Shown here in pieces: positions 656 through 60,273 of a stretch of 64,000 nucleotides of DNA (its first letter is position 1; every line of letters starts with the position of its first letter). Source of the stretch: Rhodospirillales bacterium. Its GTDB lineage: Bacteria; Pseudomonadota; Alphaproteobacteria; Rhodospirillales; JASLQF01. Both the position numbers and the translations under genes were made by a program. The stretch lies in the NCBI GenBank assembly GCA_030744625.1, contig JASLQF010000065.1, positions 62,001 through 126,000 on the forward strand, in the 5' to 3' direction. The notes under the pieces are model-generated. The model ran no database searches. It was not told the origin of the DNA and was given only the letters and a program-made list of their open reading frames with translations.

Positions 656-1210
656 TTATTCAGGCCCGGCCAATTCCTCGAGCAGTTGCCGGAGCGCCCC
701 CTTGCGGGCCTTTTGGGCGATGATCTCGGGCGTTGATATCTCCAGGGCGTCCTTGGGGCATATCTCCACGCAGGCCGGCCCCTCGGCCCGGTCCTCGCAA
801 AGATCGCAGATGACGGCGAGCTTGGTATCGGGGTTGAGGGCGATGACGCCGAAAGGGCAGGCGTCGATGCAATGCGCACACCCGTCGCAATGGGTGTTTT
901 CGACCATGACCAGTCCATTTTCCGGATTGATGACCATGGCGCCGGGCTGTGGACAGATATCCACGCAGGCCGGCTCGGCGCAGGCGCGACAAGCGATGGA
1001 GACCATGAGGACCGGTTCCGTGCGCACCAGGCGGATGCGGGAGCGGAGGATATTGGCGGTCCCCTCCTTGACTATGGCGCAGGCGAACTCGCACATCTGG
1101 CAGCCGACGCACAGATCGCGTACGCACGTCACTAACTGGTACCGGGGCGGCCCCGACGGGTAAGGATCGGGCCCCACGGACGACCCTTCTCCGATGTTAC
1201 TCTCGCTCAT
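656..1210 (-). CDS. 4Fe-4S ferredoxin, AOR-cluster electron-transfer subunit
   Basis: Multiple CxxCxxC motifs (CVGCQMCEFAC, CRACAEPACVDIC, CDGCAHCIDAC, CDLCEDRAEGPACVEIC); overlaps start of the upstream flavoprotein stop. Confidence 0.88.
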   Translation of the reverse strand: MSESNIGEGSSVGPDPYPSGPPRYQLVTCVRDLCVGCQMCEFACAIVKEGTANILRSRIRLVRTEPVLMVSIACRACAEPACVDICPQPGAMVINPENGLVMVENTHCDGCAHCIDACPFGVIALNPDTKLAVICDLCEDRAEGPACVEICPKDALEISTPEIIAQKARKGALRQLLEELAGPE

Positions 1211-2979: not shown

Positions 2980-3039
2980 GTACCTGCCTCCCTACAACTC
3001 CGATCGATCCCGGTCGGACGGCCCGATCCGGCAAGACCT

Positions 3040-3402
3040 CTAACTTCCGAGGAGTTTCCCCATTTTCCTGCGTTTGGGCCTGGATGTGTCCACCACCAGG
3101 TCTCGGATGAGTACGGAACCTTCGACCGGCTCGATCGTCACGTCGCGCTCGAACTTGGCGATGCACGTCAGTTCGACCGCGCCGTCGATGAGCACGTCGC
3201 ACGCGTCACATTTGCCGATCCGGCACGAGCTGTAATAAGCGATGCTCGGGTCGAGGTGTTCGTGGATGTAGTTCAACGCGTTCATGATGGTCCAACCCTC
3301 CTGGCGCGGTACCTCGTACTCGTCGAACCGTGCCGCCTCCTCCGACAGGGAGCCGTCCCGCTTGATGCGCAGCCTTATGCTGTCTTTACCCGTTTTTTCC
3401 AT
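3040..3402 (-). CDS. Stand-alone 2Fe-2S protein, equivalent to the N-terminal domain of SdhB/FrdB
   Basis: 120 aa from ATG at 3402; CRIGKCDAC...LTC plant-type 2Fe-2S pattern; no C-terminal 4Fe-4S/3Fe-4S domain. Confidence 0.82.
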   Translation of the reverse strand: MEKTGKDSIRLRIKRDGSLSEEAARFDEYEVPRQEGWTIMNALNYIHEHLDPSIAYYSSCRIGKCDACDVLIDGAVELTCIAKFERDVTIEPVEGSVLIRDLVVDTSRPKRRKMGKLLGS

Positions 3403-3476
3403 GTATCCCCCAAAACACCGCGCTCGGAAGTGACTGACTGCTCTCGCGCCCGCGCCAAACCCGATGATGCCGTTCC

Positions 3477-3998
3477 CTAGGCGGGTTCGTCCAGTGCATC
3501 CATCAAGGTCCGCAAGGCGCTCTGGCTGACCTTGCCCGCCACCACCGCCGGCGTGGACACCTCCAAGGCGTCCTTGGAGCACATCTCGACACAGGCCGGT
3601 CCCGCGTCACGCCCCGCGCACAGATCGCAGATGATCACCCGCTTCGTTTCCGGGTCGAGGACGATGGCGCCGAAGGGACAGGCGTCGATGCACCACCCGC
3701 AGCCGTCGCACTTGTCGTTGTCGACGTCGATCAGGCTGTTGTCCGGGTTCACCGCCAGCGCACCGTCGCGCGGGCACACCTTCACGCAGACCGGATCCTC
3801 GCACCCTCGGCAGGCTATCGAGATCATCAGGATCGGCTCCTGACGCATGACCCTGATCCGCGAGCGCAGGATATTGGCGCTGTTGTCCTTCACCGAGGCG
3901 CAGGCGAACTCACACAACTGGCATCCGACGCAGAGGTCGGGATCGCACACCACGAGCCGGGCGTGGGGCGAGATCGGAACATGCGGCGAGGGGCTCAT
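3477..3998 (-). CDS. 4Fe-4S ferredoxin, paralogue of 656..1210
   Basis: CVGCQLCEFAC, CRGCEDPVCVKVC, CDGCGWCIDAC, CDLCAGRDAGPACVEMC. Confidence 0.88.
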   Translation of the reverse strand: MSPSPHVPISPHARLVVCDPDLCVGCQLCEFACASVKDNSANILRSRIRVMRQEPILMISIACRGCEDPVCVKVCPRDGALAVNPDNSLIDVDNDKCDGCGWCIDACPFGAIVLDPETKRVIICDLCAGRDAGPACVEMCSKDALEVSTPAVVAGKVSQSALRTLMDALDEPA

Positions 3999-5818
3999 GC
4001 CGTCTGGCCCGACAGCCCGAGGCGGTCCTGGGTCGCCGGCGCCACTTCTCCCTCGGCGGTCCAGCCGCGGGCTTCGTAGTAGTCCGAGACCAGCAGTTCG
4101 AGTTCCGCCGGTGGCAGCGAGACGCCTTTCCCGGGCCCGTCCGGGATGGGCTCTTGCATTAGTCGCGGCGGCAGGCTGTCAAGCTCGCGCGTCCACCCTT
4201 CGCGGACGTTGAACATCTTCTTGAGGTTGGAAATTCGCTCGCCCGCCTCAACGAGTTCCTGGGCGCTCACATCCCAGCCGGTCGCCTGGGAGTAGAGCCG
4301 GGCACCCTCCTCGTGCAGGTCCGTGAAGCATCCTCGCATGAACTTGCAGATGCCGAGCGAATCGAGGAGCACGGCGACATCCTCCTGGGCCATGGCTATC
4401 TGGCCGCGGCCTTTTTCCGCCTTGAAACGGTCGACCTTGCCCTTGAGATCCGGCTCGTAGGCCAGCGAACGGTTGTGGCATCCCCCGCGCGTGCCGACGG
4501 CGAGGCCGAGCGCGTACGTCTTCATGCCGCGCGGGTCGTAGCCCGGCAGCTCCAGCCCCTTTGAGTGTATCGCGAAGTAGTCGCTGTCCTTGCCCACCTC
4601 CTGGGCGGCCAGCCTCGATCCTTCCGCCAGGATCTCGCCGAGCCCCTCGCGCCGCGCGATCTTGAGGATCATCGCCACCATGGCATCGGCGTTGCCGAAG
4701 CGCAGGTCGACGCCGTCGTCGGGAGGAAGCAGTCCGCGCTCCGCCGCTTCCATCGCCCAGGCCAGGGTTACGCCCGTGCTGAGCGTGTCCATGCCGAGCG
4801 TGTCGCACAGCTCCGCGGCACGAATGACGGCGGGCAGGTCGTCGACGTCGCAACACGGACCGAGCGCGAACAGGGTCTCGTAGTCCACCGAGACCCGTGC
4901 CCCCGCATGAGACCCCTCGGCGACCTTCATGACCTGCTCGCAGGCGATGGGGCACGCCGCGCAGGCCACGGTCTTCTCATGGTGACGGCGGTGAAGGGTC
5001 TCGCCGGAGATGCCTTCGGCCTCGTCGAGCGCCGTCCTTTGAAAATTGCGCACCGGGAGGACCCCGAGGCGATTCAGGGTGAGGACGTTGCCGACCGTCC
5101 CCGGCTCGCGGTACTTGCCGGTCGCCGGACCCTGTGCTTGCGTGATCAAGTCGCAGGAGGTCTGGTAGACGGCGTCGTTGTCGGCGACCGCCACGGCGCC
5201 CGATCCGCGCACGGCGATCGCCTTGAGGTTTTTCGATCCCATGACCGCCCCCGGCCCGGTACGTCCGGCCTGTCGGCCCCGGTCGTTGCCGATGCACGCG
5301 AAACGCACGAGATTCTCGCCGGCCGTGCCGATGGCGGAGACCCGCACCGCCTCGTCCCCGAGTTCCTCGCGGATCGCTTCTTCGGTGGCGAAGCACTCCT
5401 GGCCCCACAGCGCCCGGGCATCACGGAAATACACCGTGTGATCGTCTATGAACACGTACACCGGCGTGTCGGCGCGCCCCAGTATCACCACCGCGTCGTA
5501 ACCGGCGCGCTTCAGGGTGTGGGAGAAGAAGCTCCCGGCCATGGCATCGCCCAGCATGCCCGTGAGGGGGGATTTGGTGGCGACGGAGTGCTTCGCCGCG
5601 GCGGGCACGATGGTGCCGGCAAACACGCCGCAAGCGAACACGATGACGTTGCCCGGCTCCAGGGGGTCCACCCCCGGCGCCAGGTGGTCGTAGAGCAGCC
5701 GCACGGCGAGCCCGGACCCTCCGAGGTAGGCGCGGAGCATGGACTGGGAAAGTTCAATTTCTTCCGATTTGCGTTCCGTGAGGTCAATGATCAGAGCTTT
5801 TCCGGTGTAACCGTTCAT
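3995..5818 (-). CDS. Aldehyde:ferredoxin oxidoreductase (AOR) family protein
   Basis: 607 aa; MNGYTGKALIIDLTERKSEEIEL, TGPGAVMGSKNLKAIAVRG, CAACPIACEQ, YDPRGMKTYALGLAVGTRGGCHNRS are typical of the AOR family. Confidence 0.94.
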   Translation of the reverse strand: MNGYTGKALIIDLTERKSEEIELSQSMLRAYLGGSGLAVRLLYDHLAPGVDPLEPGNVIVFACGVFAGTIVPAAAKHSVATKSPLTGMLGDAMAGSFFSHTLKRAGYDAVVILGRADTPVYVFIDDHTVYFRDARALWGQECFATEEAIREELGDEAVRVSAIGTAGENLVRFACIGNDRGRQAGRTGPGAVMGSKNLKAIAVRGSGAVAVADNDAVYQTSCDLITQAQGPATGKYREPGTVGNVLTLNRLGVLPVRNFQRTALDEAEGISGETLHRRHHEKTVACAACPIACEQVMKVAEGSHAGARVSVDYETLFALGPCCDVDDLPAVIRAAELCDTLGMDTLSTGVTLAWAMEAAERGLLPPDDGVDLRFGNADAMVAMILKIARREGLGEILAEGSRLAAQEVGKDSDYFAIHSKGLELPGYDPRGMKTYALGLAVGTRGGCHNRSLAYEPDLKGKVDRFKAEKGRGQIAMAQEDVAVLLDSLGICKFMRGCFTDLHEEGARLYSQATGWDVSAQELVEAGERISNLKKMFNVREGWTRELDSLPPRLMQEPIPDGPGKGVSLPPAELELLVSDYYEARGWTAEGEVAPATQDRLGLSGQTA

Positions 5819-16701: not shown

Positions 16702-19281
16702 ATGTCCGACCATCAAGAGCACAGGGTGGTTTATGTTTCTCACCCGGCGAGCGGCCTGGCGAGGTCTAATTTCCCCCTGGAATGTCACGTCGAGGGCTCC
16801 AGGATCGTCAGGTCGCTTCCCTTCTATATTCCCGAAGACGTCAGGCTCTACGAGATCAAGACGTCACGGGGCGTCTTCACGCGACCCAGAAAAGAAGTGC
16901 AGATGCCTTTGGCATTTGCCGCGAAGCGGAGGGTTCACTCGGCGACGCGCGTAAAATATCCGCTGTTGCGGGATGACTGGAGCCCCGACAACCCGAATGC
17001 GGAGCAGCGCGGCAAGAGCGGCTATTCCCGGATCAGCTGGGAGCAGGCCCTGGATGTCATTGTCGGCCAGTTGAATCGAATTCATGAGAAATATGGGTCG
17101 ATGGAACCCGTTCTCGTTCAAGCCGACGGGCACGGCCATAGCGGATACATGCAGTCCCTACATTTCTGGGGGCACTATCTCTTTGACATGATCCGCGAAC
17201 ACCTTGGATGGGGATGGTGGACCCAGCAGGTGCGGAACCCCGACAGTTGGGAAGGTTACTACTGGGGCGCCAAGCACGTCTGGGGCTTCGATGACACCCT
17301 GGGAGAGCCCTACCAGGATGCCGTCTGGGACGACGTGCTCGAGCATGCGGAAATGGTGATTTTCTCGGGTAACGATCCAGAGGCGACGGGCTTTGGCATG
17401 TCGGGATCGATCGCCCTGGAGATGCCCAAATGGCTGAAGCGAGCCGGCATCAAGGTCGTCGCCATCTCGCCGGACCTCAACCACGCGGCGGCGGTTCACG
17501 CCGACAAGTGGATCCCCATCAAGCCGAATTCGGATGGGGCGCTCTATCTCGCGGTGGCGCATACATGGATCGTCGAGGGAAGCTATGACAAGGAATACGT
17601 AAGAACGCACACGGTCGGCTTCGAGGAGTTCAGGCGCCATGCGATGGGCGAAGACGGCGGCGTGGCGAAGACGCCGGCGTGGGCGGAGAAGATAACGGGC
17701 GTGCCGGCACACACGATTCGGGCCCTGGCCAGGGAGTGGGCGGCCAAGAAGACCACGCTCTCGGTCTACTTCGGGGGCCCGAAGATCAGAGGGACCCTAT
17801 CGCATGTGGCCGCAAGGCTGGAGGCCTACGTGTTGGCGATGCAGGGCATTGGCCGCCCGGGAAGACAGTTCCTGAGGACAGGGGCGCCTTCCTTCTACAA
17901 GAAATCGTTGGCACAGGTGCCTCGTTATCCCGAGGTCGATCATCACGGGATCGCCCTCAATCCGATGATCGAGTATGCGATCGGGCATGGGCCGAAGTCG
18001 CCGGTGTTCATCCCCAGGACCCTTGCCGCCGAAGCCATTCAATGCCCGTCCATCGAATGGAGAGGCACCACCGCCTCTTTGGCGAAGACGGAGGACCAAT
18101 TCAACCACTACCGCTTTCCCCCCAACGACGGTCATCCCGGCATTCGTATGGTGTGGAACGAGAATGGCAGTCAGCCGGGAAGCTGGGGCCACGGCTGGAA
18201 CTGGCTGGAGGCGCTGGCAAATCCACGAATTGAATTCGTCGTCGGGGTGCATCCCTGGCTCGAGAACGACATCCCGTTCTCGGATCTGATATTGCCCGCG
18301 CAGACCAACTACGAGCATGAAGATCTGGTGACGGTGCAACGGAGCGATGTCCTGGCCATGTTCTACCAGGACCAGGCCATCGAGCCGGTCGGCGAGTCGA
18401 AGAGTGACTACGAGATACACCGCATGATCGGCCAGCGACTGGGATTGGACGACGTGTTTCCGCCCGCCGAGCAATGGTTGAAAGCGGCCTACGGGGGAAC
18501 GCTGGCTTCGACGAAGCATGGAACCACTTGGGAAGAGTTCAAGGAGAAGAAGCACTTCGTCTACGATTGCCCGACATGGGACGAATGGGTGGAAATCAAG
18601 AAGGAGCACGGTTTTGGGCCGAATGAAGGCGGGCTCCACTGGTTCTGGTCGGCGGGTGACGGACTGGAAACGCCTTCGGGAAAGATCGAATTCGTTTCGT
18701 CCCGGATTGCCGAGCTTGATCCCGATAATACGGAACGGCCGCCGCTGGCAAGGTGGGTGCCGCATGGCGAACTGCGGGACTCGCCCAAGGGGCGGGAGTA
18801 TCCCCTATCGGTGATGTCGAATCACCCAAGATTCAGGTTCCACGTCCAAGGCGACGATGTCGACTGGATCAGAGAGATAGCCAAGGTCCGCGGCCCGGAC
18901 GGTTACATGTACGAACCGTGTTGGATCCATCCGACCGACTCCGACGTCAGAGGCATCGCGGACGGCGATATCATCATGGTGCACAACGAACGTGGTGCCT
19001 TGCTTGTCGGCGCCGTGGTGACTGAAAGAATTATTCCCGGTGCCTTGTCCATCGACCATGGCGCCAAGATCGACCTTGCGATGCTCAACAACACGCTCAT
19101 CGACCGGGGTGGCTGTATCAACCTGATCGCACCGACGCCGCAGGAAAAATATGGAGCCGGAGCGGAGATCGCCATCCCGGAAATGAACGTCAGCGGCTTC
19201 CTGGCACAGGCCGCCAAGATAGACGTATCAGACATCGTGGCGAGTACGGGCTTAGGCCACGGAGCCACGGTGCCGGGTTGA
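16702..19281 (+). CDS. Molybdopterin oxidoreductase, DMSO-reductase superfamily; resembles transhydroxylase (pyrogallol hydroxytransferase) large subunit
   Basis: 859 aa; no N-terminal 4Fe-4S Cys motif; NPDSWEG; C-terminal TERIIPGALSIDHGAKIDL...DRGGCINLIAP resembles the transhydroxylase clade; followed by FeS subunit. Confidence 0.82.
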   Translation: MSDHQEHRVVYVSHPASGLARSNFPLECHVEGSRIVRSLPFYIPEDVRLYEIKTSRGVFTRPRKEVQMPLAFAAKRRVHSATRVKYPLLRDDWSPDNPNAEQRGKSGYSRISWEQALDVIVGQLNRIHEKYGSMEPVLVQADGHGHSGYMQSLHFWGHYLFDMIREHLGWGWWTQQVRNPDSWEGYYWGAKHVWGFDDTLGEPYQDAVWDDVLEHAEMVIFSGNDPEATGFGMSGSIALEMPKWLKRAGIKVVAISPDLNHAAAVHADKWIPIKPNSDGALYLAVAHTWIVEGSYDKEYVRTHTVGFEEFRRHAMGEDGGVAKTPAWAEKITGVPAHTIRALAREWAAKKTTLSVYFGGPKIRGTLSHVAARLEAYVLAMQGIGRPGRQFLRTGAPSFYKKSLAQVPRYPEVDHHGIALNPMIEYAIGHGPKSPVFIPRTLAAEAIQCPSIEWRGTTASLAKTEDQFNHYRFPPNDGHPGIRMVWNENGSQPGSWGHGWNWLEALANPRIEFVVGVHPWLENDIPFSDLILPAQTNYEHEDLVTVQRSDVLAMFYQDQAIEPVGESKSDYEIHRMIGQRLGLDDVFPPAEQWLKAAYGGTLASTKHGTTWEEFKEKKHFVYDCPTWDEWVEIKKEHGFGPNEGGLHWFWSAGDGLETPSGKIEFVSSRIAELDPDNTERPPLARWVPHGELRDSPKGREYPLSVMSNHPRFRFHVQGDDVDWIREIAKVRGPDGYMYEPCWIHPTDSDVRGIADGDIIMVHNERGALLVGAVVTERIIPGALSIDHGAKIDLAMLNNTLIDRGGCINLIAPTPQEKYGAGAEIAIPEMNVSGFLAQAAKIDVSDIVASTGLGHGATVPG

Positions 19282-19288
19282 TCGAGCA

Positions 19289-20098
19289 ATGGACAAGAAG
19301 ACATTCCTGATCGATGTCGACAAGTGCTCCGGCTGCAGGCTGTGCATGATCGTCTGCAAGGACGAGCACGTTGGAAGCGGCTATTCACCCTGGACCAAGC
19401 CTCAGCCCGACACCGGGCAGTTCTGGATCGATGTCCATTCGCTGGAAAGGGGGCGGATCCCCAGAGTTCGGATGTCGTATCTGCCTGTTCTTTGCCAGCA
19501 CTGTGAAAATGCACCCTGCGTCAAGGCGTGCGCCGAGGCAGCCATCAAGACCAGGAGCGATGGTCTGGTATGGATAGACCCCGCGCCATGCACGGGCTGC
19601 GGGCTCTGTCAAACGGCGTGCCCTTACGACGTTATCTATATGAACGGTGATCTGAAGATTGCCCAGAAGTGCACGGGCTGCGCACACCGCGTAGACGAAG
19701 GGGCCTTGCCGAGATGTGCCGAGGTCTGTCCGCACGACGTCATCGTCTTCGGTGACGTTGAAAACGGCAAGACCCTGAAAGTCTATCACCCTGAATACCA
19801 AACCGGGCCGAGGGTCTATTGGAAGGGCCTGCCAAAGCCGTGGATCGCGGGTACGGTGATAGACGCGCTCAGCGACGAGGTGATTTCGGGCGTGGCGATC
19901 ACTTCGGTGGATCTATTCGAGGACGCATCGGTCACCGTCCTTTCGGACGAGTTCGGTGACTTCTGGATAAGGGGCATGGAGAAAGACCGAAAGTACCGGG
20001 TCGAGATCAGAAAGGAAGGCTACCAGGACTTCCTTTCAATCGTCACCACGGATGGCGATCAGGACGTGGGGACCGTCGGTCTGAAAAGGACACCGTGA
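19289..20098 (+). CDS. 4Fe-4S dicluster-type subunit with C-terminal Cna_B/carboxypeptidase-regulatory-like beta domain; transhydroxylase small subunit-like
   Basis: 16 Cys in four 4Fe-4S motifs; C-terminal domain AGTVIDALSDEVISGVAITS...DEFGDFWIRGMEKDRKYRVEIRKEGY. Confidence 0.84.
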   Translation: MDKKTFLIDVDKCSGCRLCMIVCKDEHVGSGYSPWTKPQPDTGQFWIDVHSLERGRIPRVRMSYLPVLCQHCENAPCVKACAEAAIKTRSDGLVWIDPAPCTGCGLCQTACPYDVIYMNGDLKIAQKCTGCAHRVDEGALPRCAEVCPHDVIVFGDVENGKTLKVYHPEYQTGPRVYWKGLPKPWIAGTVIDALSDEVISGVAITSVDLFEDASVTVLSDEFGDFWIRGMEKDRKYRVEIRKEGYQDFLSIVTTDGDQDVGTVGLKRTP

Positions 20099-20148: not shown

Positions 20149-21264
20149 TCAGTGACCGGCCCGCGCCGCCCGCGCCAGGGCGCGTATGTTTTCGGCCGGC
20201 GCCTTGAAAGGAATTTCGCACCCCGTACTGAGCACGAAGGGCGCGCCGCGGGCGCTCTCGATACAGGCGCGCGCTTCACGGAACACTTCCTCGGGACTCG
20301 CCCCCAGGAGCACCTGGGTATTGTCGACGTTGCCGACCCAGGCAACGGCGCGGGCCGTGTCGCGAGGACGCAGGCAGTATCGATCCAGGCAGGCGTTGGC
20401 CGAGGTGTGCTTCGCATGGCAGTCCCAGCCGTGCTCGGCGCCGATGGCGCGAACGTCACCGTAGGCAAAGCTGATGGCATCGATATCGAGTTCGAGGATC
20501 TCTTCAAGGTAGGGGGTGTTGGAGCAGTTGTGCTCGATGAGGAACACCTCCGGTGCCTCCCGGCGGGCCGTCTCGAGGAGGCGCCTGTGATAGGGCAACA
20601 CGAAACGATCCAGATGATGAGGCCCCATCAGCTCGCGGCAGACACCCGGGTTCTCGAAGAGCACCGCGTCACAGGCACCGGTGCGCAGGATGGCCAGCAA
20701 GTAACGTTCCGTGCCTTCGGTGACGCGCTGGAAAAGGGATTCGACGTACGGGGGATCATTGATGAAGTCCGTCAACAGCTTCGCCATGCCGCGCAGCTCG
20801 CAGGCAACCAGGAACGGGGACACGACCAGGGCCACGATGAACAGGTCGTCGCCCGAGCGTTGACGCAACCGGCTCAGGGCATCGAGGACCAGCGGCATGC
20901 GTCCGCTGCTCGACGGATCCGGGTCGGACAGGCGAGCCAGGTTGCGGTCTTCCTCCAGGGGGCGCCCGGTCACGCGAGGGTAGTAATCTTCCAGCTTCTC
21001 GATACGGCAGCCGAAGGCCTCCGCTTCGACCGTGAGACATCCCCACGGAACCATGGCGCTGTCGTGCTCGAACAATTCGGCCGCCGCCGCCTGTGTCGCG
21101 GCCATCAGGTGCGGATCGCCATAGGCCTCGTTCATGCGCCTTCCCACATGCCCGAGCACGTGCCGTGCTCCGCCCAGGAACAGGTAGGCAAGCGCCGGGC
21201 GATCCGTTGGCTGGCCCCGCAAGGCGCGCCTCATGCGCTCCCTTGAAGTCAAGTTTCCCGGCAT
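20149..21264 (-). CDS. Uroporphyrinogen decarboxylase (URO-D) family methyltransferase (MtaA/MtbA/CmuA-like)
   Basis: 371 aa; LTSRERMRRALRGQPTDRPAL start, IEHNC and STGCEIP Zn-ligand-like motifs. Confidence 0.85.
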   Translation of the reverse strand: MPGNLTSRERMRRALRGQPTDRPALAYLFLGGARHVLGHVGRRMNEAYGDPHLMAATQAAAAELFEHDSAMVPWGCLTVEAEAFGCRIEKLEDYYPRVTGRPLEEDRNLARLSDPDPSSSGRMPLVLDALSRLRQRSGDDLFIVALVVSPFLVACELRGMAKLLTDFINDPPYVESLFQRVTEGTERYLLAILRTGACDAVLFENPGVCRELMGPHHLDRFVLPYHRRLLETARREAPEVFLIEHNCSNTPYLEEILELDIDAISFAYGDVRAIGAEHGWDCHAKHTSANACLDRYCLRPRDTARAVAWVGNVDNTQVLLGASPEEVFREARACIESARGAPFVLSTGCEIPFKAPAENIRALARAARAGH

Positions 21265-21292
21265 CGGTGTTCTCCAGTTATTCGAATAGGCT

Positions 21293-23275
21293 CTACGGGT
21301 CGATGGGGGCGCTCGACGCGGGCCGGGGCTCCGGAATATCGACGACCGAGGCGAGACTGGGGAATGGGTCCAAGCCGTGGGGGATCGCCATGGCCGTCAC
21401 GAAATATTCTTGGAACTGCTTGTCGGCCGCGGTTTCCACCTTTTCGACGCGCCGCACCAGTGCTTCGATCTCGTCCCGCGCCCGACGGCTCACGAGGGCG
21501 ATTCGGGCGCCGGTGCCGGCGGCGTTGCCGGCCGAACTCACCCTGGCAAGATCGCAGTCGGGGATCATCCCCAGCACCATGGCGTGCATGGGGTCGATGG
21601 TGCTGCCGAAAGCACCCGCCAAGACGATGCGGTGGACCGCCTCCACCCCCATCCGGTCCATGAGAAGGCGCGCCCCGGCATAGAGCGCGCCCTTGGCAAG
21701 CTGAATGTTGCGGACATCGGTCTGGGTAATCCTCAGTTCGGGAGGGCCGGCATGGAGGCGATAGGCGAAGGCACGGCCGTCGCCGACAACGTGCGGACCG
21801 CGCTCGGCGCAGCCACCGTCGATCAGGCCGCTGGCGGAGATGATTCCGGCGAGGAACATTTCCGCCACCGCCTCGATGATGCCCGAGCCGCAGACGCCGG
21901 TCACACCGACATCGGGGATGGCTTCGTCGAAGCCGGGCTGGTCCGACCACTTGTCGCATCCGATCACCTTGAAGCGCGGGGCCAGGGTCTCCGGGTCGAT
22001 GCGGACCCGCTCGATGGCGCCCGGCGCGCCGCGTTGACCACAACTGATCTGCGCCCCTTCGAAAGCCGGACCGGTGGGGCTCGAACAGGCGAGCAGACGT
22101 TCGCGGTTGCCGAGGATGATCTCGGCATTGGTGCCGACGTCGACGATCAGCATCAGTTCCTCGGATTCATGCGGCGCTTCGGAAAGCAGCACGGCGGCGG
22201 TGTCGGCGCCGACATGCCCGGCGATACAGGGGAGAAAATAGGCCCGGGCCGCCGGATGGAGGTCGAGGTCGAGCTCCGCGGCCTCGATCGTCACCGAGGT
22301 GTCGACGACCAGGGGAAAGGGCGCCCGGCCCAGTTGCAAGGGATCTATCCCGAGCACGATGTGATGCATGATCGGATTGCCGACGAAGGTGGCCTCGACC
22401 AGGTCGGCGCATTCGATTCCCGCCGCGCGCGCCGTCTCGGCGGCCAGCTGTCCGATCGCCTGGCGCACCATGGCGGTCAGCTGGGCGGCGGTACCGGGGT
22501 TGAGCTGAACATAGGAAACGCGGCTTATCACATCCTCGCCGAAGCGGATCTGCGGGTTCATCGTCCCGGCGGCGGCGATCACGTCGCCGGTCGTCAAATC
22601 GCAGAGATGGGCGGCGATGGTTGACGTTCCCACGTCGACGGCCAACCCGAAAACGCGGTCGCGGAATCCGGGCCAGACGCCGAGCAGGCGGCTCCCTTCG
22701 TGGAGCGCCACGGTGACCTTCCAGTCCCCCTGCCTGAGCGCCTTCGGCAGCTCACGCAGGAAGCCGGCGTCATAGTCCAGTCCGGTGATGTGCCATTGTT
22801 CTCCGAGCCCCCGTTGAAGACGCCCGAGGTCGCTCTCCTGGTCGTCGATGGTGGGTTCGGTGAGTTCGACGTAATGAAGCCGCACCACCGGGTCGACTTT
22901 GACGGCGCGGATTTCGGGGCGTTTGCGGACGATCTGCTTGTGGAGTTGACTTTCCGTCGGCACGTCGATGACCGCGTCACCCATGATCCGCGCCGCGCAA
23001 CTCAAGCGGCGGCCGGCGGCGAGACCTTCGAGCCGGGCATAGCTCGCCTCGACCTCGCCGATGGGCGTCAGGTGGCTTTCCCTCGAGGTGATCCCCAACT
23101 TGGCGTGCTCGCCGGTCGCCAGGGTCACCTGACAACGGCCGCAGATGCCGCGGCCGCCACAGACGGAATCGATGTCCACGCCGAGGCTGCGCGCCGCCGC
23201 CAAGACCGATGTGCCGACGGGAAACCGGCGCCGCCGACCAGACGGCATAAAGACGATCAAGGCATCATCAGGCAC
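21293..23275 (-). CDS. RACE-type reductive activator of corrinoid proteins (2Fe-2S + DUF4445/ASKHA)
   Basis: CGGRGICGRCQ...LSCAAR 2Fe-2S; VFGLAVDVGTSTIAAHLCDL, VDVGTNAEIILGN, CGSGIIEAVAEM; GTG start at 23275 overlapping upstream stop. Confidence 0.9.
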   Translation of the reverse strand: MPDDALIVFMPSGRRRRFPVGTSVLAAARSLGVDIDSVCGGRGICGRCQVTLATGEHAKLGITSRESHLTPIGEVEASYARLEGLAAGRRLSCAARIMGDAVIDVPTESQLHKQIVRKRPEIRAVKVDPVVRLHYVELTEPTIDDQESDLGRLQRGLGEQWHITGLDYDAGFLRELPKALRQGDWKVTVALHEGSRLLGVWPGFRDRVFGLAVDVGTSTIAAHLCDLTTGDVIAAAGTMNPQIRFGEDVISRVSYVQLNPGTAAQLTAMVRQAIGQLAAETARAAGIECADLVEATFVGNPIMHHIVLGIDPLQLGRAPFPLVVDTSVTIEAAELDLDLHPAARAYFLPCIAGHVGADTAAVLLSEAPHESEELMLIVDVGTNAEIILGNRERLLACSSPTGPAFEGAQISCGQRGAPGAIERVRIDPETLAPRFKVIGCDKWSDQPGFDEAIPDVGVTGVCGSGIIEAVAEMFLAGIISASGLIDGGCAERGPHVVGDGRAFAYRLHAGPPELRITQTDVRNIQLAKGALYAGARLLMDRMGVEAVHRIVLAGAFGSTIDPMHAMVLGMIPDCDLARVSSAGNAAGTGARIALVSRRARDEIEALVRRVEKVETAADKQFQEYFVTAMAIPHGLDPFPSLASVVDIPEPRPASSAPIDP

Positions 23276-24167
23276 TTTCGACCTGCCGGCCGGCGGCGTT
23301 CCGGGCACGTGCCGCGGACAATCGCCGCGACCTTTTGATCCATCGTTTGCACATGGGGTCCAGGGTGCAAATGACCTCGGCGCCCATGATGCCGGCGATG
23401 GTGTCTTCATGGAGCGGGTTGACAATTGCCGATGTCAGGCCGGCGCCGATCAGCATGGACAGGAAGGCACTGTTGAGGCTCGTTCGTTCAGGCAGGCCGA
23501 AACTGACGTTGGAAGCCCCGCAGGTGGTGTTGAGTTCGAGCTCCTCGTGGACCCTTCGCACCACCGTCAAGGCGGATTTGCCGGCCGCGTTGACGGCGCC
23601 GACGGGCATTACCAGCGGGTCGATGACCACGTCCGAGGCGGGGATGCCGTGATCGGCGGCGCGTTCGACGATCTTCTTGGCCACGGCGAACCGCTCGTCG
23701 GGGTTCTCGGAAATGCCGGCCTCGTCGTTGCAAATGGCGACGACCGCGGCGCCGTGCTTCTTGACCAATGGCAGCACGCTCTCCAGCCGCTCCTCCTCCC
23801 CGGTGACGGAATTGACCAGGGCCTTGCCGTCATAGACCGAGAGTCCGGCGGCCAGCGCCGCCGGGTCGGACGAATCGATGCACAGCGGCACGTCGGTGAC
23901 CGACAGCACCAATTCGACGACCTCCTTCATGACCTTGGGTTCGTCGGCCATGGGAACGCCGGCGTTGACGTCGAGCACATGGGCACCGGCCTCAACCTGC
24001 GCCAGCGCATCCGCTTGGACGCGGCTGTAATCTCCAGCCGCCATCTCTTCGGCGAGCTTTTTCCGCCCCGTGGGATTAATACGCTCCCCCACGATGACGA
24101 AAGGATGGGCCGGTCCGATGATCACTTCCTTGGTGGCGGAGCTCAGAAGGGTTTCCGTCATTGTCAT
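23268..24167 (-). CDS. Pterin-binding methyltransferase (MtrH/AcsE/DHPS-like; methylcobamide:tetrahydrofolate methyltransferase)
   Basis: FVIVGERINPTGRKKLAEEM, GAHVLDVNAGVP, DVPLCIDSSDPAALAAGL. Confidence 0.9.
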   Translation of the reverse strand: MTMTETLLSSATKEVIIGPAHPFVIVGERINPTGRKKLAEEMAAGDYSRVQADALAQVEAGAHVLDVNAGVPMADEPKVMKEVVELVLSVTDVPLCIDSSDPAALAAGLSVYDGKALVNSVTGEEERLESVLPLVKKHGAAVVAICNDEAGISENPDERFAVAKKIVERAADHGIPASDVVIDPLVMPVGAVNAAGKSALTVVRRVHEELELNTTCGASNVSFGLPERTSLNSAFLSMLIGAGLTSAIVNPLHEDTIAGIMGAEVICTLDPMCKRWIKRSRRLSAARARNAAGRQVESA

Positions 24168-25168
24168 TCCTTTCCCTCGGTGGATCTTTGCAAGGGGCGC
24201 CGTGAGCCGCGGGTCTTGAGGACGCCGGACGCCCTGATGATCTCGGAGACCAGTTCTTCCTGGCGATATGCCATAACGTGGACCCCGGCGACGCCCTTTA
24301 TTTCGGAGATCCGCTGGATGAGTTCGATGCAGATGTTCTTGCCTTCGAGCCTCTGGTCCTTGGCCCCCTCGAGACGGGAAATGGTCGCGTCCGGAATGTG
24401 GACGCCGGGCACCTTTGAACGCATCCACCGGGCTCCCCGCGCCGACGCCAGCGGCCCCACGCCGACCAGGATGAAACAGCGCTCGTCGAGGCCCAGGTGG
24501 CGGACCCTTTCCATGTAGCGTTCCAGGATCGGGACATCGAAACAGTACTGGGTCTGCACGAACTGCGCCCCCGCCGCGATTTTTTTGGCGAGCCGCTGCG
24601 GCCGCCACTCGTAAGGCGGGGCGAAGGGGTTGGCGGCGGCCCCGATAAAAAGCTCCGGCGCCTCCGTAATCTTGCGCCCTGACAGAAAGCAGCTCTCGTC
24701 GCGCATGGTCCTGATCGTTTTCAGCAATGACATGCAGTCCAGATCAAACACCGGCTTGGCATTCGGCTGATCGCCGACCTCGACGCCATCGCCGCTCAGG
24801 CAAAGGATGCTGTGGACACCCATGGCCGCCGCCGCCAGCACGTCACCCTGGATGGCGATCCGATTGCGATCGCGGCACGAAATCTGCATCACCGTGGAGT
24901 ACCCGGCACGGGTGAGCAACGCGCATATCCCCAGGCTCGACATGTGGCAGTTGGCGCCCGACGCATCCGTGGCGTTGACCGCGTCGCAGACCTGGGAAAG
25001 CACCAGGGCCCGCCTGTAGGTTTCTTCCGGGTCGGCGGAATCCGGCGGGTTGAGTTCGGCGGTCAGGGCAAATCTGCCGGACCGCAGGACCCTCTCCAGC
25101 CGCCCGCGCGAGGAGTGCCCCGGCAAAACGGGGTAGGACGCCGGGGTATCGTTCGTATAGGCGCTCAT
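24164..25168 (-). CDS. Methylenetetrahydrofolate reductase (MetF-like)
   Basis: FALTAELNPPDSADPEETYRRA, LCLSGDGVEVGDQPNAKPVFDLD, AGAQFVQTQYCFDVPILERYMERV; overlaps neighbours by 4 bp. Confidence 0.9.
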   Translation of the reverse strand: MSAYTNDTPASYPVLPGHSSRGRLERVLRSGRFALTAELNPPDSADPEETYRRALVLSQVCDAVNATDASGANCHMSSLGICALLTRAGYSTVMQISCRDRNRIAIQGDVLAAAAMGVHSILCLSGDGVEVGDQPNAKPVFDLDCMSLLKTIRTMRDESCFLSGRKITEAPELFIGAAANPFAPPYEWRPQRLAKKIAAGAQFVQTQYCFDVPILERYMERVRHLGLDERCFILVGVGPLASARGARWMRSKVPGVHIPDATISRLEGAKDQRLEGKNICIELIQRISEIKGVAGVHVMAYRQEELVSEIIRASGVLKTRGSRRPLQRSTEGKE

Positions 25169-25647
25169 TCCCGGCCTTCGCCACCGTTAGCGGCCGTCGC
25201 CGCGAGCATCTTCTCGCGGCTCAGCCGCAACCACGAAGACGAACCCTGGTGGCGGTGGTCGACCGGTCCTTGGAACTTCATGATCGCCTCGCCGTCGCCC
25301 ATTCTCCGGCTGCCCGCCCAGGCCTCGACCCAAACGCACCGCATATCCGGTTCGACCTCGCAGGTGCCGTCCGGGCGAACCCCGCCGCAAGGTCCGTTGC
25401 GCAGGGATTTGGGGCAGTTCATCGGGCAGGTCATGCCGGTGGCGACGAGGATGCAGTGGCCGCACATCCGGCAATCGAAAAGGGCTCCCTTGAACCACGC
25501 CTCGAGCGCCGCTACGGGCTTCTCGAGGCGCCCATGGCCGATCCGCCGCCATAGAGGGTCCAGCGCCTGGAATATGCGGAGAAAGACGGTGTAGACGGCC
25601 TCAAGCGCGCCGGCTCTTCGCGTCGCCCAAAGCCGCACGACATACAT
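25165..25647 (-). CDS. MetV-like methylenetetrahydrofolate reductase accessory protein (MTHFR C-terminal Zn-binding domain)
   Basis: CRMCGHCILVATGMTCPMNCPKSLRNGPCGGVRPDGTCEVEPDMRCVWVEAW. Confidence 0.87.
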   Translation of the reverse strand: MYVVRLWATRRAGALEAVYTVFLRIFQALDPLWRRIGHGRLEKPVAALEAWFKGALFDCRMCGHCILVATGMTCPMNCPKSLRNGPCGGVRPDGTCEVEPDMRCVWVEAWAGSRRMGDGEAIMKFQGPVDHRHQGSSSWLRLSREKMLAATAANGGEGRE

Positions 25648-25728
25648 GAATTCAGCCTCCCAGGCTCGTGCCGCGGCACCGCCCGCGGCTTCCATGCGAA
25701 ACGATCGGGCACACCAATTCTTCCGGCC

Positions 25729-26349
25729 CTACCGTCTTTGCTCCCGGAGAAACTTTTCGAAGTCACCGTAGCCCGTGAAGCGCATTTCGAATTCGAGACC
25801 CAAGGTCTCGGCGGCCGCTTCCGCCTTGGCCTTGAGGGCGAGATCGTCGCTTTGGGCCAGATAGACGAGCTTCTTGTACTTGCCGAAATACGTCGAGCGA
25901 AGTTCGGGGTAGCGGTCGAGCCCCAATCCCTTGACCACCAGCCGTTCGAAGTGCTGGGTCAGGAAATCGGTGAGGATGAAGGATCCGGGCTCGGCCTTCA
26001 TCATGGCCGCGAACGTGTCGGCGCCGGCAAACACCTCGTAACAATGCGCGCCCTTGATGCTTTCGACGCCTTCCTCATTCAGCATGTCCTCCAGCTGGCC
26101 ACCGGTGCCGCAGTCGCTGTACAGCACGACGATGCGCTCGCAGAGGTCACGGTTGGCCCGGATTTTCCGCCGCACGCCTTCGGGAATGCGTCCCGGGTCG
26201 TTGTGCAGATGGGCCGGCAGGCAATCGACGCGCATGTCGTCCCAGCCGTTGGCATCGATCATCGCGATGATTTCCCGGGCCACGGCCCCACAGCAGATGA
26301 TCAATGTGCCTGTCTTGTCGCCCGGCTTTTGGCGTGCCATTTGGCCCAT
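25729..26349 (-). CDS. DUF1638 family protein
   Basis: TLIICCGAVAREIIAMI, CLPAHLHNDPGRIPEGVRRKI, VLYSDCGTGGQLEDML. Confidence 0.83.
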   Translation of the reverse strand: MGQMARQKPGDKTGTLIICCGAVAREIIAMIDANGWDDMRVDCLPAHLHNDPGRIPEGVRRKIRANRDLCERIVVLYSDCGTGGQLEDMLNEEGVESIKGAHCYEVFAGADTFAAMMKAEPGSFILTDFLTQHFERLVVKGLGLDRYPELRSTYFGKYKKLVYLAQSDDLALKAKAEAAAETLGLEFEMRFTGYGDFEKFLREQRR

Positions 26350-26367
26350 GTTGCGCGGTCTTCCCGG

Positions 26368-27531
26368 TTACGCGGCCTTGCCATAGGAATGGCTCAGGCC
26401 CTCGTCGAACATGGCGACGATGTTTTCCGGCGGCACCTCGGGCTGGATGTTGTGCACGGTGTTCAGAATGTAGCCGCCACCCTTGCCCAGCACGTCGATG
26501 ATGCGGCGCGTCTCGGCGCGAACCTCTTCCGGCGTTCCGAAGGGCAGGATCTGCTGGGTGTTGATGCCGCCCCAGAACGTCATGCGGTCGCCGAAGGCCT
26601 CCTTCAGGCCTGCCGGCTCCATGTCCCTGGCCGTCACCTGGACCGGGTTGAGGGCATCGATCCCGATGTCGATCAGGTGTTCGATGAAGGGGTAGGCCGA
26701 CCCGCAACAGTGATAGCAGATCTTGACGTCGGCTCGCGACTTGACGGTCTCGACCATGCGCCGGTGCCGCGGCTTGATGTACTTGGCGTAAATGTTCTCG
26801 GGATCGAACATGCATCCTTCCTGGGTGCCCAGATCCTCGCCGAAATACACGATGTCGATGTTTTCCGGACCGGCGGCTTCGATCATCCTCTCCGCCGTGC
26901 CCACCCAGAAGTCGGTGAGCTTGTCCATGAGAAGGCACCAGGCCTCGCGATTCTTGTATAGGTCCTTGAGATAGGGCTCGAAACCCCGCATGGCATAGCC
27001 GCGGTGAACGACGCCGCCGGGAAGGTAAAGGCAGACCGCGTGGTCACCCTGTTCCATGATTTCCTGGACCCGTTCCTTGACCCCTTTGACGAGTCCCGGG
27101 TTGTCGGGATCGGGCCAGTCGAAGGCTTCGATCGCCTCGATGGTCATCACGCCCTCGTAGAAAGGTCCGTCCTTGTGAAGGAAATGCTGGTCGATGGACC
27201 TCTCCGTGCGCTTCCACAGGACGTCGAATATGTCGACGTACGTGTTGGTGTCGATCCATTCCTGGTGTCCGCCCTCGTATCCCCCGGGCTGTACGTTGCG
27301 GGTGTCGACATCGAAGCGCCGCAACATCTCCTCGTGGGGGTGCGCGACCGAGTGAATGATCGACATGACCTCGGTTTCATGGTCGATGCCGAGGTGTTTC
27401 TTGAGTCTCTCGTAGGCGGGAAGGGTGATCGAGGTGAATTCCGCGCCGCCGAAATCGATGGGAACGCGATCCGGTTCCTCATGGTTCAGGGCGGCCATTA
27501 TGCGGTCCCTGTGCGTCCAAGCCATTGTCAT
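26368..27531 (-). CDS. URO-D family corrinoid methyltransferase (substrate methyltransferase candidate, MT-I)
   Basis: RDRIMAALNHEEPDRVPIDFGG; ICYHCCGSAYPFI; ILNTVHNIQPEVPPENI; adjacent to corrinoid protein. Confidence 0.87.
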   Translation of the reverse strand: MTMAWTHRDRIMAALNHEEPDRVPIDFGGAEFTSITLPAYERLKKHLGIDHETEVMSIIHSVAHPHEEMLRRFDVDTRNVQPGGYEGGHQEWIDTNTYVDIFDVLWKRTERSIDQHFLHKDGPFYEGVMTIEAIEAFDWPDPDNPGLVKGVKERVQEIMEQGDHAVCLYLPGGVVHRGYAMRGFEPYLKDLYKNREAWCLLMDKLTDFWVGTAERMIEAAGPENIDIVYFGEDLGTQEGCMFDPENIYAKYIKPRHRRMVETVKSRADVKICYHCCGSAYPFIEHLIDIGIDALNPVQVTARDMEPAGLKEAFGDRMTFWGGINTQQILPFGTPEEVRAETRRIIDVLGKGGGYILNTVHNIQPEVPPENIVAMFDEGLSHSYGKAA

Positions 27532-27604
27532 GTTCCTTCCACATCTGTGCCGGTCAGGTCGGCCGGGATCATTACGCTCCGCGTGCCGGCGGCGGCACCG
27601 AGGT

Positions 27605-28243
27605 TCAGTCCCCGACCAAGGTCCGCGCCAGGGCGACCGCGCCGGGGGCATCGAGGCCGTACCCGTGGGCACCGATTTTATCGGCGTAATTCTGGTTTAT
27701 GGGTGGACCGCCGACCATCACCTTGATGTTCAGGTTGCGGTTCTCATTGGCCTCGCTAATCGCCGCCACGGCCTTTTCCATCTCCGGCATGGAGGTGGTG
27801 AGCAGGCTCGACAAGGCGATGATGTCGGCCTCGTTCTCCTGGGCGGTGGTGATGAAGGTCTCGGCATCCACGTCGACGCCCAGGTCGACGACACGGAAAC
27901 CCCCACCCTCGAGCATCAACCCCACCAGGTTCTTGCCGATGTCGTGAAGGTCGCCCCTGACGGTTCCGAGGACGACCGTGCCCGCCGGTTTGGTCCCGGT
28001 GCCGACGAGATGGGGCCGGAGGACATCGAGCCCGGCCTGCACGGCTTCCGCCGCCATCAGCATTTCCGGGACGAAAAGCGTGCCGCCGCTGAACTGCTTG
28101 CCGATCATGTCCATGGCGGCGATCATTCCCTCGTCGAGGATGGTCTTGACATCGGTTCCCGCGTCAAGCTCCTGATTTATGAGTTCGACGACCCTCGTGT
28201 CGTCGTACTCCATGACCGCATCATAAATTTCCTGGATTGCCAT
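27605..28243 (-). CDS. Corrinoid (B12-binding) methyl-carrier protein (MtbC/MttC/OdmA-like)
   Basis: GTVRGDLHDIGKNLVGLMLEGGGFRVVDLG with DxHxxG cobalamin motif; N-terminal helical cap; ATG at 28243. Confidence 0.94.
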   Translation of the reverse strand: MAIQEIYDAVMEYDDTRVVELINQELDAGTDVKTILDEGMIAAMDMIGKQFSGGTLFVPEMLMAAEAVQAGLDVLRPHLVGTGTKPAGTVVLGTVRGDLHDIGKNLVGLMLEGGGFRVVDLGVDVDAETFITTAQENEADIIALSSLLTTSMPEMEKAVAAISEANENRNLNIKVMVGGPPINQNYADKIGAHGYGLDAPGAVALARTLVGD

Positions 28244-28324
28244 TTCATTCCCTTCTTTCGGCCCTGCTGGCGGGGCCACGGGCACCGAGAGCGCGCGCAG
28301 TATACCCTTTCCAAGAACCCCCCG

Positions 28325-28344
28325 TTTTTGACATAAGTCAAAAA
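28325..28344. promoter_or_regulatory. Candidate FNR/FixK-type box (TTTTTGAC-ATAA-GTCAAAAA)
   Basis: Perfect 8-bp inverted repeat containing TTGAC-N4-GTCAA, between divergent corrinoid protein and BisC-like genes. Confidence 0.65.
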
Positions 28345-28422
28345 GAATTTGTTGCATCACCCGCACCAATCGCCGTTGGGCTTCAACCGCCACAATGCGT
28401 AAAACCGAAACGGAGCGTCGTC

Positions 28423-30723
28423 ATGAGCAAAGGGGAGTCGCAATTCAGCACACTCTCGCATTGGGGAGCCTACACGGTCACCGTCCGCGGCGGACAAGTG
28501 GTCGGCGTTGCACCATTCGTCAAGGACCCCGACCCTTCACCGATTATCGAGGCCTTGCCCAGCGCCCTGCACGACAAGAGCCGCATTCTCCATCCGATGG
28601 TCCGCAAGGGGTTCCTGGAAGATCGGCAAGCGAGCGATCGTACGAAGCGGGGCGCCGACCCGTTTGTCGCGGTTTCCTGGGATGAGGCGTTGGATCTGGT
28701 CGCCGAGGAGTTGGATCGCGTGCAATCCGCCCATGGCAACGAAGCGATTTACGGCAGCTCCGGTTGGTCGAGCGCCGGTCAATTTCACCAAGCGGAATCC
28801 CAGCTCAAGCGGTTCCTGAACGCATTGGGCGGCTTCGTCGACCAGGTCACCAACTTCAGCTTCGGCGCCGCGTCCGTCATCGTGCCGCGCGTCACCGGGT
28901 CGATGGAGCCCGTGCTGACGCCGACCATGTGGCCGGTGATCGTCGAAAACACAAGGTTGATGGTCTTGTTTGGGGGCTTGCCGCAAAAGAACAGCCAGGT
29001 GACCAAGGCCGGGCTGGGCGCCCACAGCATGATGGGGTGGTTGCGCAAGGCAAGGGCCGCCGGTGTCGAGTTCGTGTCGATCAGCCCGAGACGGGACGAC
29101 ATGCCTGATTTTCTCGAGGCGGAATGGCTGCCCGCCCGCCCCAATACCGACGTCGCCTTGATGCTGGGCCTCGCCCATACGTTGGTCGCCGAAGACCTGC
29201 ACGATAGCCAATTCCTGGATCGCTACTGCGTCGGTTTCGAGCGCTTCCTCCCCTACCTGACCGGCCAGGTGGACGGCGTCCCGAAGGACGCCGAATGGGC
29301 GGCGGCAATCACCGAGATCGACGCCGAGACCATCCGCGAACTGGCGCGGCGCATGGCGGCGACACGGTGCATGGTGGCGGCGAGCTGGTCTGTTCAGCGC
29401 TCGGACCATGGCGAGCAGCCCTTCTGGATGGCCGTTGCCCTGGCCGCCATGCTGGGCCAGATCGGACTTCCCGGTGGCGGTTTCGGCTTCGGCTATGGCG
29501 CCATGAACAGCATCGGCGACGCGGTCTCGAGGATACCGGTTCCGTCATTACCCAGGGGCCGGAATTCCGTGCAAGCGTTCATCCCCGTTGCCCGCGTCGC
29601 CGACATGCTGCTGAACCCGGGCGGGCAGATCGACTTCAATGGGGAGAAAATCACTTATCCCGACATTCGGCTGATCTATTGGTGTGGCGGAAACCCGTTC
29701 CATAAACAGCAGGACATCAACCGCCTGCTGCTGGCCTGGCAAAAGCCCGAGACCATCATCATCCACGAACCGTGGTGGACACCGGCGGCGCGCCGCGCCG
29801 ACATCGTTCTCCCCTGTACGACGACCCTCGAACGAAACGATATCGGGGCATCGGATAGAGATCGGTTCTTCATGGCGATGCCCAAGGCGGTCGAGCCGGT
29901 TGGCGAGTCGCGGAGCGACTACGACATATTCTCCGGGTTGTCGAAGCGCCTGGGTTGCCACGAGCACTACACCGAGGGCCGTGACGAAATGGGCTGGCTG
30001 CGCCACATGTACGACGTCGCCCGGCAAGGTGCGTCGCGCGCCGGCCATGAACTGCCGTCATTCGACGACTTCTGGGAAAAAGGCCATCTTGAATTTCCCG
30101 CGAGCAAGGACCCCAAGGTATTGTTCGACGCTTTTCGCGGCGATCCGGGCGGCAGTCCCCTGAAGACTCCGTCGGGGAAAATTGAAATCTATTCGCAAAC
30201 GATCGCCGGGTTTGAATACGATGATTGCCCGGGCCACCCGATGTGGATGGAGCCCATCGAATGGCTGGGTTCGCAAAAAGCCGTAGCTTTCCCGCTGCAT
30301 CTGATTTCGAACGCGCCGGCGCACCGGTTGCACAGCCAGCTCGATTGCGGCGCGGTCAGCCGCGCCGCCAAGGTCGGCGGGCGCGAGCCGGTGTGGATGC
30401 ATCCGCGCGATGCCGGGGCACGGGCCATTGGCGACGGCGATATCGTTCGGGTTTTCAACGGGCGCGGCGCTTGTCTGGCGGGGGCCGTCGTCACCGACTC
30501 GATTCGCCCCGGCGTGATCCAGCTGGCGACCGGTGCCTGGTATGACCCGACGGAGCCGGGCACCATCGGTTCGCTGGATAAACATGGCAATCCCAACGTA
30601 CTGACGCTGGACAAGGGCGCATCGAAGCTAACGCAAACGTGTGCCGCCCTGTCGGCGCTCGTCGAAATCGAGCTCTACGAAGGCGAACCGCCAGCGGTCT
30701 CGGCGTTCGAACCGCCATCGTGA
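28423..30723 (+). CDS. BisC/TorA-like molybdopterin S-/N-oxide reductase, apparently cytoplasmic
   Basis: IYGSSGWSSAGQFHQAESQLKRFLN, LIYWCGGNPFHKQQDINRLL, no N-terminal FeS Cys cluster, no Tat signal. Confidence 0.9.
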   Translation: MSKGESQFSTLSHWGAYTVTVRGGQVVGVAPFVKDPDPSPIIEALPSALHDKSRILHPMVRKGFLEDRQASDRTKRGADPFVAVSWDEALDLVAEELDRVQSAHGNEAIYGSSGWSSAGQFHQAESQLKRFLNALGGFVDQVTNFSFGAASVIVPRVTGSMEPVLTPTMWPVIVENTRLMVLFGGLPQKNSQVTKAGLGAHSMMGWLRKARAAGVEFVSISPRRDDMPDFLEAEWLPARPNTDVALMLGLAHTLVAEDLHDSQFLDRYCVGFERFLPYLTGQVDGVPKDAEWAAAITEIDAETIRELARRMAATRCMVAASWSVQRSDHGEQPFWMAVALAAMLGQIGLPGGGFGFGYGAMNSIGDAVSRIPVPSLPRGRNSVQAFIPVARVADMLLNPGGQIDFNGEKITYPDIRLIYWCGGNPFHKQQDINRLLLAWQKPETIIIHEPWWTPAARRADIVLPCTTTLERNDIGASDRDRFFMAMPKAVEPVGESRSDYDIFSGLSKRLGCHEHYTEGRDEMGWLRHMYDVARQGASRAGHELPSFDDFWEKGHLEFPASKDPKVLFDAFRGDPGGSPLKTPSGKIEIYSQTIAGFEYDDCPGHPMWMEPIEWLGSQKAVAFPLHLISNAPAHRLHSQLDCGAVSRAAKVGGREPVWMHPRDAGARAIGDGDIVRVFNGRGACLAGAVVTDSIRPGVIQLATGAWYDPTEPGTIGSLDKHGNPNVLTLDKGASKLTQTCAALSALVEIELYEGEPPAVSAFEPPS

Positions 30724-56577: not shown

Positions 56578-56581
<4 letters not shown>
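55637..56581 (+). CDS. metF: Methylenetetrahydrofolate reductase
   Basis: [65 protein letters not shown]. Confidence 0.96.

Positions 56582-60269
<3,688 letters not shown>

Positions 60270-60273
<4 letters not shown>

Follow-up and report, generated by a model that had tools for sequence, protein, structure and literature searches.

A Putative Folate-Linked Corrinoid Methyl-Transfer Operon with a UroD-Type Substrate Enzyme in an Uncultured Alphaproteobacterium

Introduction

Recent work has established corrinoid methyl transfer as a major route by which glycine betaine is demethylated in the ocean (PMC12478193). In Ruegeria pomeroyi, this reaction is carried out by the Mtg system, consisting of MtgB-MtgC-MtgD, MetF2, RamA, and a DUF1638 protein; oxidation of methyl-tetrahydrofolate (methyl-THF) is the role proposed for MetF2 (PMC12478193). 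In Phaeobacter inhibens, which has a split methionine synthase, DUF1638 is tied to the reactivation of B12 (PMC5764234). The present work concerns an eight-gene operon at positions 20149-28243, on the minus strand of a 64 kb stretch of DNA (the window) inside a 195,591-bp contig of a Rhodospirillales metagenome-assembled genome (MAG), which is 3.2 Mb in size and about 88% complete. The host is probably an uncultured marine alphaproteobacterium. The operon is very probably a complete corrinoid methyl-transfer system of catabolic function that delivers methyl groups to folate and resembles Mtg with a UroD-type enzyme at the substrate step; it is also likely to be under low-oxygen control. A literature search on low-oxygen or Rhodospirillales corrinoid systems found nothing on point.

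Organization of the Operon

Eight complete genes, with their start and stop codons in order, occupy the region. Domain calls come from Pfam and NCBIfam searches of the window proteins. In gene order, the components are:

27605-28243, minus strand: corrinoid (B12) carrier of 212 aa, first gene (PF02607 and PF02310; DxHxxG motif)
26368-27531, minus strand: MT1, a UroD-fold methyltransferase (PF01208)
25729-26349, minus strand: DUF1638 protein (PF07796, E 4.5e-28)
25165-25695, minus strand: MetV-type zinc-finger subunit (PF12225, DUF5981)
24164-25168, minus strand: MetF-type methylene-THF reductase (PF02219, MTHFR)
23268-24167, minus strand: pterin-binding methyltransferase, MtgD/AcsE-like (PF00809, Pterin_bind; PRK07535 at 353 bits, cut-off 259)
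21293-23275, minus strand: RACo/RamA-type ATP-dependent corrinoid reductive activase with a 2Fe-2S domain (PF14574, PF17651, PF17650, PF00111)
20149-21264, minus strand: MT2, a second UroD protein, MtaA/MtsA/CmuA-like (PF01208; PRK06252 at 165 bits, below the cut-off)

The refined starts lie at 28243, 27531, 26349, 25695, 25168, 24167, 23275, and 21264, and the successive junctions measure +73, +18, +33, -4, -4, -8, and +28 bp. The corrinoid gene begins with ATG and has GAAGGGAA upstream. The start of the pterin methyltransferase overlaps the MetF gene as ATGA, while the activase, which has the RACo linker, middle, and C-terminal domains, uses a GTG start with an 8-bp overlap, in agreement with the starts of its relatives. 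A first-pass annotation of this DNA had named the same eight components in this order, and each is backed by Pfam or NCBIfam matches. The "many" overlaps of 4-8 bp that it described are real (4, 4, and 8 bp), but they occur at just three of the seven junctions.

All four components of a generic system of this kind are encoded in one place: a substrate methyltransferase (MT-I), a corrinoid protein (CP), a corrinoid:folate methyltransferase (MT-II), and an activating enzyme (AE). MT1 is proposed as the candidate substrate:corrinoid MT-I, the pterin-binding enzyme is the predicted corrinoid:THF methyltransferase (MT-II), and the DUF1638 protein is a probable partner in corrinoid reactivation. The earlier description of a full set feeding methyl-THF to a dedicated MetVF is thus upheld by the domain evidence. 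In the scheme that we infer, which concerns the direction of the reaction, the partner specificity, and the regulation, MT1 would take a methyl group from a methylated substrate and load it onto the carrier's Co(I), and the pterin-binding methyltransferase would hand it to THF. Oxidation of methyl-THF by MetVF would then yield methylene-THF, which could be oxidized further or assimilated. Corrinoid that has fallen to Co(II) would be re-reduced by the RACo-type activase together with the DUF1638 protein, and a low-oxygen regulator of the FNR/DNR family would switch the operon on. MT2 would serve as a further point of entry, acting on a substrate of its own. The HxC...C thiol/zinc motif that it retains (H245, C247, C349) hints at an S-methyl compound.

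Apart from HemE, the two UroD proteins of the operon are the only ones in the MAG that pass the Pfam search. The same MAG (labelled G000; L-numbers denote loci of relatives, and G125 and G386 are other genomes) also encodes a 656-aa protein in which B12 cap and B12-binding domains are fused to a diverged UroD domain (G000:C41:94313-96283, or L208:8313-10283). This fusion has a CmuA-like layout, and TRAP transporter genes lie about 7 kb away.

Comparison with Described Systems

The closest resemblance is to Mtg. Both have a corrinoid carrier, a bidirectional pterin methyltransferase, a RamA-type activase, DUF1638, a second MetF with a proposed role in THF-linked C1 oxidation, and a marine alphaproteobacterial setting. 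The full Mtg accessory set is therefore present, while the MttB superfamily (PF06253) to which the Mtg substrate enzyme belongs has no member in the about 88%-complete MAG; the absence of an MttB-family gene noted in the first-pass annotation extends to the whole of it. In contrast to Mtg, the substrate enzyme is of the UroD type, MetV is added, the genes form one tight operon, the corrinoid protein belongs to a separate group (39-46% identity to the homologs common in the class), and a complete MetH is encoded elsewhere in the genome. By analogy, the operon probably works like Mtg, except that a UroD-type enzyme stands where Mtg has an MttB-type substrate enzyme.

Like the aromatic O-demethylase systems MtvABC, Odm/Vdm, and MtoABCD and the chloromethane system CdmBCA, the operon encodes a UroD-type MT-I, a corrinoid protein, a pterin-type MT-II, and an activase as separate proteins. 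It differs from them in its host group and in MT1, which is remote from CdmB. DUF1638 goes unmentioned for aromatic O-demethylase and CdmBCA systems in PMC8630106 and PMC13222342. The chloromethane system CmuA/CmuB of Methylorubrum extorquens CM4 is, like the operon, an alphaproteobacterial corrinoid route to THF with a dedicated MetF. However, CmuA is a UroD-corrinoid fusion, whereas here the two modules are distinct genes at 26368-27531 and 27605-28243, as had been noted before. On pCMU01, the only detected relative of MT1 is CmuC-type (26% identity over 39% of the query); a region of this plasmid that was inspected separately does not include cmuA.

By definition, a type 1 mlp cluster has two or more Mlps and lacks a THF methylase within 20 kb (PMC10418091). 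The operon shares with them an MtaA-like protein (MT2), a corrinoid protein, and an activase, but it has only one MtaA-like protein and contains a THF methylase at 23268-24167, which places it outside the definition.

Direction of Methyl Transfer

The direction of methyl transfer is suggested by genes outside the operon. A full MetH with an activation domain lies in the window open reading frame 55777-60273, with a canonical MetF beside it at about 55718-56545. The two ranges overlap because the reading frame is longer than the MetH gene within it. This MetH contains the only homocysteine methyltransferase domain (PF02574) in the MAG. The other MT1-bearing genomes tested have a PF02574 gene in six of six cases, with a high-scoring MetF adjoining it in five. 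Since MetH and a canonical MetF are present elsewhere, the MetVF of the operon is surplus to methionine synthesis. In all, the MAG has three MetF-type genes, the operon copy included. The third (G000:C26:41529-42404, L162) is 51% identical to the operon MetF and has no corrinoid genes nearby. PF06253 is found neither in this MAG nor in G125, which is 98% complete and has four MT1-type genes. The surplus MetVF and the absence of MttB in both genomes argue for demethylation.

The same parts could in theory run the other way as a split methionine synthase, in which methyl-THF made by MetVF supplies the methyl group that the pterin methyltransferase puts on the corrinoid protein and MT2 passes on to homocysteine. 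The Phaeobacter split synthase indeed uses the same kit of DUF1638, RamA-like activase, corrinoid protein, and pterin methyltransferase (PMC5764234), and MT2 has the HxC...C motif typical of thiol-methylating enzymes. This alternative is nevertheless highly improbable. The operon has no PF02574 gene, in contrast to the Phaeobacter system; MT1-type genes are multicopy in some genomes, as substrate enzymes would be; and the complete MetH-MetF pair elsewhere in the window, with its like in the relatives, led to its rejection.

MT1 and Its Partner Proteins

The AlphaFold2 model of MT1, built with 54 sequences, has a predicted local distance difference test score (pLDDT) of 93. Its best match among solved folds is MtaA, the methylcobalamin:coenzyme M methyltransferase (4ay7; E 1.3e-14, template modelling scores 0.63/0.71), followed by UroD. 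All 54 sequences share H274 and H360, and C276 is kept in at least 90% of them. A zinc site in MT1 is plausible because H274-x-C276 aligns to the zinc-binding HxC of MtaA and H360 lies near the position of its third cysteine. The motif E-x14-E-x20-H, which we take to be the zinc motif of acetogen MT-I enzymes, is not present.

A profile of MT1 and 53 relatives scores 37.5 bits against MtaA and only 20.6 bits against CdmB (9rui), the solved member of the MtvB/OdmB/MtoB group. In a tree of 71 rows, MT1 falls in a Pseudomonadota-dominated clade of 17 rows (support 100/100), nested in a clade of 26 rows (100/99), and the wider family around these clades comes from anaerobes. The clade of MT1 has no characterized member. 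This tree, part of the check that the first-pass annotation had suggested, gives MT1 a clade of its own. For the methoxyaromatic group, the comparison was the profile score against CdmB; the Moorella (M. mulderi) genome has eight UroD relatives, none identifiable as MtvB. The label "O-demethylase-type" given to the operon in that annotation is not supported by this placement or by the profile scores, and the accessory set, which includes DUF1638 and a second MetF, fits roseobacter Mtg and split-MetH systems better than acetogen O-demethylases.

The partner proteins show differing degrees of conservation. For the corrinoid protein, identities of 64-70% are seen only with proteins from other MT1-bearing MAGs; most MtgC-type proteins, which are present in about a fifth of the class, match it at 39-46%. 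By these identities it forms a separate group, as MT1 does. The DUF1638 protein is 56-65% identical in 13 relatives, with invariant cysteines. Its model (pLDDT 86) has no PDB match under E 1e-3, so the fold gives no functional hint. The pterin methyltransferase is 66-75% identical in six relatives. MT2, on the other hand, has no homolog at E<=1e-25 among 385 genomes of the class, and is best regarded as a second, variable point of entry. Its tree placement beside HemE, on a long branch with doubtful support, was not used.

Conservation among Relatives

MT1 homologs at E<=1e-30 occur in five of 385 alphaproteobacterial genomes, and a search within the order finds them in 3 of 60; both counts include the source genome. 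A scan of GTDB species genomes adds MT1 proteins of 65-77% identity in MAGs labelled Rhodospirillaceae, Rhodospirillales, and Alphaproteobacteria, along with one MT1-bearing MAG labelled Hyphomicrobiales and one labelled Actinomycetes. The last (L042) has a 76% identical MT1 with a corrinoid protein and DUF1638, reflecting either a binning error or transfer.

The order corrinoid protein-MT1-DUF1638-MetV-MetF-pterin methyltransferase is repeated in L025, L029, and L045; the activase follows it in L025 and L045, and L026 and L044 show parts of it. Because parts of the operon order recur in independent MAGs, a chance arrangement is excluded. The relatives usually carry a second MT1-type gene near the operon in place of MT2, and some genomes have multiple copies. 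The names of several isolates, by our reading, point to Saanich Inlet, the Arabian Sea, and cold seeps as sources. Judged from these genomes, the core operon is conserved in uncultured, mostly marine Alphaproteobacteria.

Other arrangements are found farther away. Nitrospinota-type MAGs (L057, L065, L073; one is named ODZ_NOB7a) have a corrinoid protein with tandem UroD genes of the MT1 family, and L073 additionally carries an activase. Some distant MT1-family loci (L069, L117, and others) lie beside sugar kinases, RraA-like genes, or sugar-catabolism genes, without corrinoid genes. The wider MT1 UroD family may have other roles elsewhere.

Promoter Region and Regulation

The operon shares a promoter region, 28244-28422, with a divergent gene:

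28328-28341: FNR/DNR-type palindrome TTGACATAAGTCAA, an exact consensus match
28423-30723, plus strand: S/N-oxide reductase of the BisC/TorA/DorA family (TIGR00509 at 1054 bits, cut-off 1017; ATG at 28423)

Three matches to the FNR/DNR-type palindrome occur in the window, where 0.10 are expected; the further perfect palindromes are at 8577 and 40944. Similar boxes lie upstream of corrinoid genes in L028 (at 170 bp) and L041 (at 141 bp). An FNR/DNR-type regulator probably places this copy of the operon under low-oxygen control. In several relatives, AT-rich palindromes fit, by our reading, the adjacent GntR genes.

Flanking Genes and Candidate Substrates

The divergent reductase brings to mind a methyl-sulfur pathway, in which the BisC/TorA-family enzyme would reduce an S-oxide such as dimethyl sulfoxide and MT2 (MtsA-like), with the corrinoid protein, would demethylate the product. 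The shared promoter region and FNR-type box, the thiol motif of MT2 and its membership of the MtaA/MtsA/CmuA family, and the link of related Mlp clusters to methyl-sulfur metabolism (PMC10418091) all speak for such a pathway. It is quite unlikely, however, because 11 of 14 MT1-bearing genomes lack the reductase at E<=1e-60, because it does not adjoin the operon in the two others where homologs were found, and because the lack of close MT2 homologs among the 385 class genomes makes MT2 an add-on rather than core.

On the other side, the operon faces a convergent pair of genes:

16702-19281, plus strand: large subunit related to pyrogallol transhydroxylase and resorcinol hydroxylase (PDB 4v4c_A, 389 bits)
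19289-20098, plus strand: its Fe-S partner subunit with a C-terminal domain (4v4c_B, 129 bits, residues 4-263; CarboxypepD_reg)

This pair has the features expected of PgtL/RhL enzymes, namely the NPDSWEG region and a paired Fe-S subunit with a C-terminal domain. The serine of NPDSWEG is presumably the molybdenum ligand, although which serine serves is our assumption. Residues at about 555-563 of 4v4c_A, which we take to be the active-site loop of pyrogallol transhydroxylase, have no counterpart in the phmmer alignment to 16702-19281.

The pair invites a second possibility, that MT1 demethylates lignin-type methoxyaromatics and passes the phenol product to the transhydroxylase-like molybdoenzyme. 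The pyrogallol transhydroxylase family acts on phenols (PMC10100899), the four-part layout is that of MtvABC and Odm systems (PMC8630106), and the MAG of the nearest MT1 relative has an ortholog of the pair (84% and 75% identity). However, that ortholog lies away from the operon locus, the pair here is convergent and not co-transcribed, and 10 of the 14 MT1-bearing genomes tested lack it. Taken with the distance of MT1 from CdmB and its missing acetogen-type zinc motif, this makes a methoxyaromatic substrate unlikely.

In relatives, MT1 and corrinoid genes adjoin TRAP transporters, GntR regulators, PhyH dioxygenases, PanB, and MtaA-like proteins. The recurrence of TRAP, GntR, PhyH, and PanB beside the operon or the MT1/corrinoid genes in L025, L026, L027, L044, and L167 (G386) raises the possibility of demethylation of a small carboxylate or osmolyte-like compound fed by TRAP uptake, with the window copy keeping the core while its uptake genes were lost or moved. 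These gene families do not give an exact substrate, and tblastn with the L025 proteins found none in the window or the examined flanks, the rest of the genome not being searched. A substrate of this class is conceivable but rather doubtful.

Because the neighboring genes are not conserved beside the operon, a substrate cannot be named from context. Assigning one from the window neighbors was rejected, as the molybdoenzyme loci on both sides are not conserved there. The first-pass annotation had named no physiological substrate, and no neighboring gene fixes one.

Several observations weigh against a low-oxygen demethylation system. MetF-type enzymes usually work in the reductive direction, and the MAG is incomplete. 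The FNR box is no more than a match to the consensus, and most other relatives have none. The displacement of both molybdoenzyme loci from the operon in the relatives that have them counts in the same direction.

Broader Context

The operon may represent, though the odds are slightly against it, a previously undescribed UroD-type substrate-enzyme module of low-oxygen marine Alphaproteobacteria, which takes the place of MttB, serves anaerobic methyl use, and is controlled by FNR/DNR or GntR regulators. If so, respiring bacteria would use the methyl groups of an unrecognized substrate anaerobically. The operon itself joins an Mtg-like chassis to another kind of substrate enzyme, of the UroD type, in uncultured members of the class. 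The names of several MT1-bearing MAGs hint at low-oxygen waters, pointing to an unrecognized methyl donor there. The locus also offers a defined protein set, with as many as four MT1-type paralogs within a single genome, and it places the corrinoid-linked DUF1638 family in a new context.

Two further features were observed. A conserved protein of about 240-265 aa is encoded near corrinoid or MT1 genes in L018, L025, L026, L029, L037, L040, L044, and L167; it has no Pfam or NCBIfam match, and no match in the window. At 656-5818 of the window, one minus-strand run encodes an aldehyde:ferredoxin oxidoreductase-family protein, Fe-S proteins, and an FrdA-like flavoprotein.

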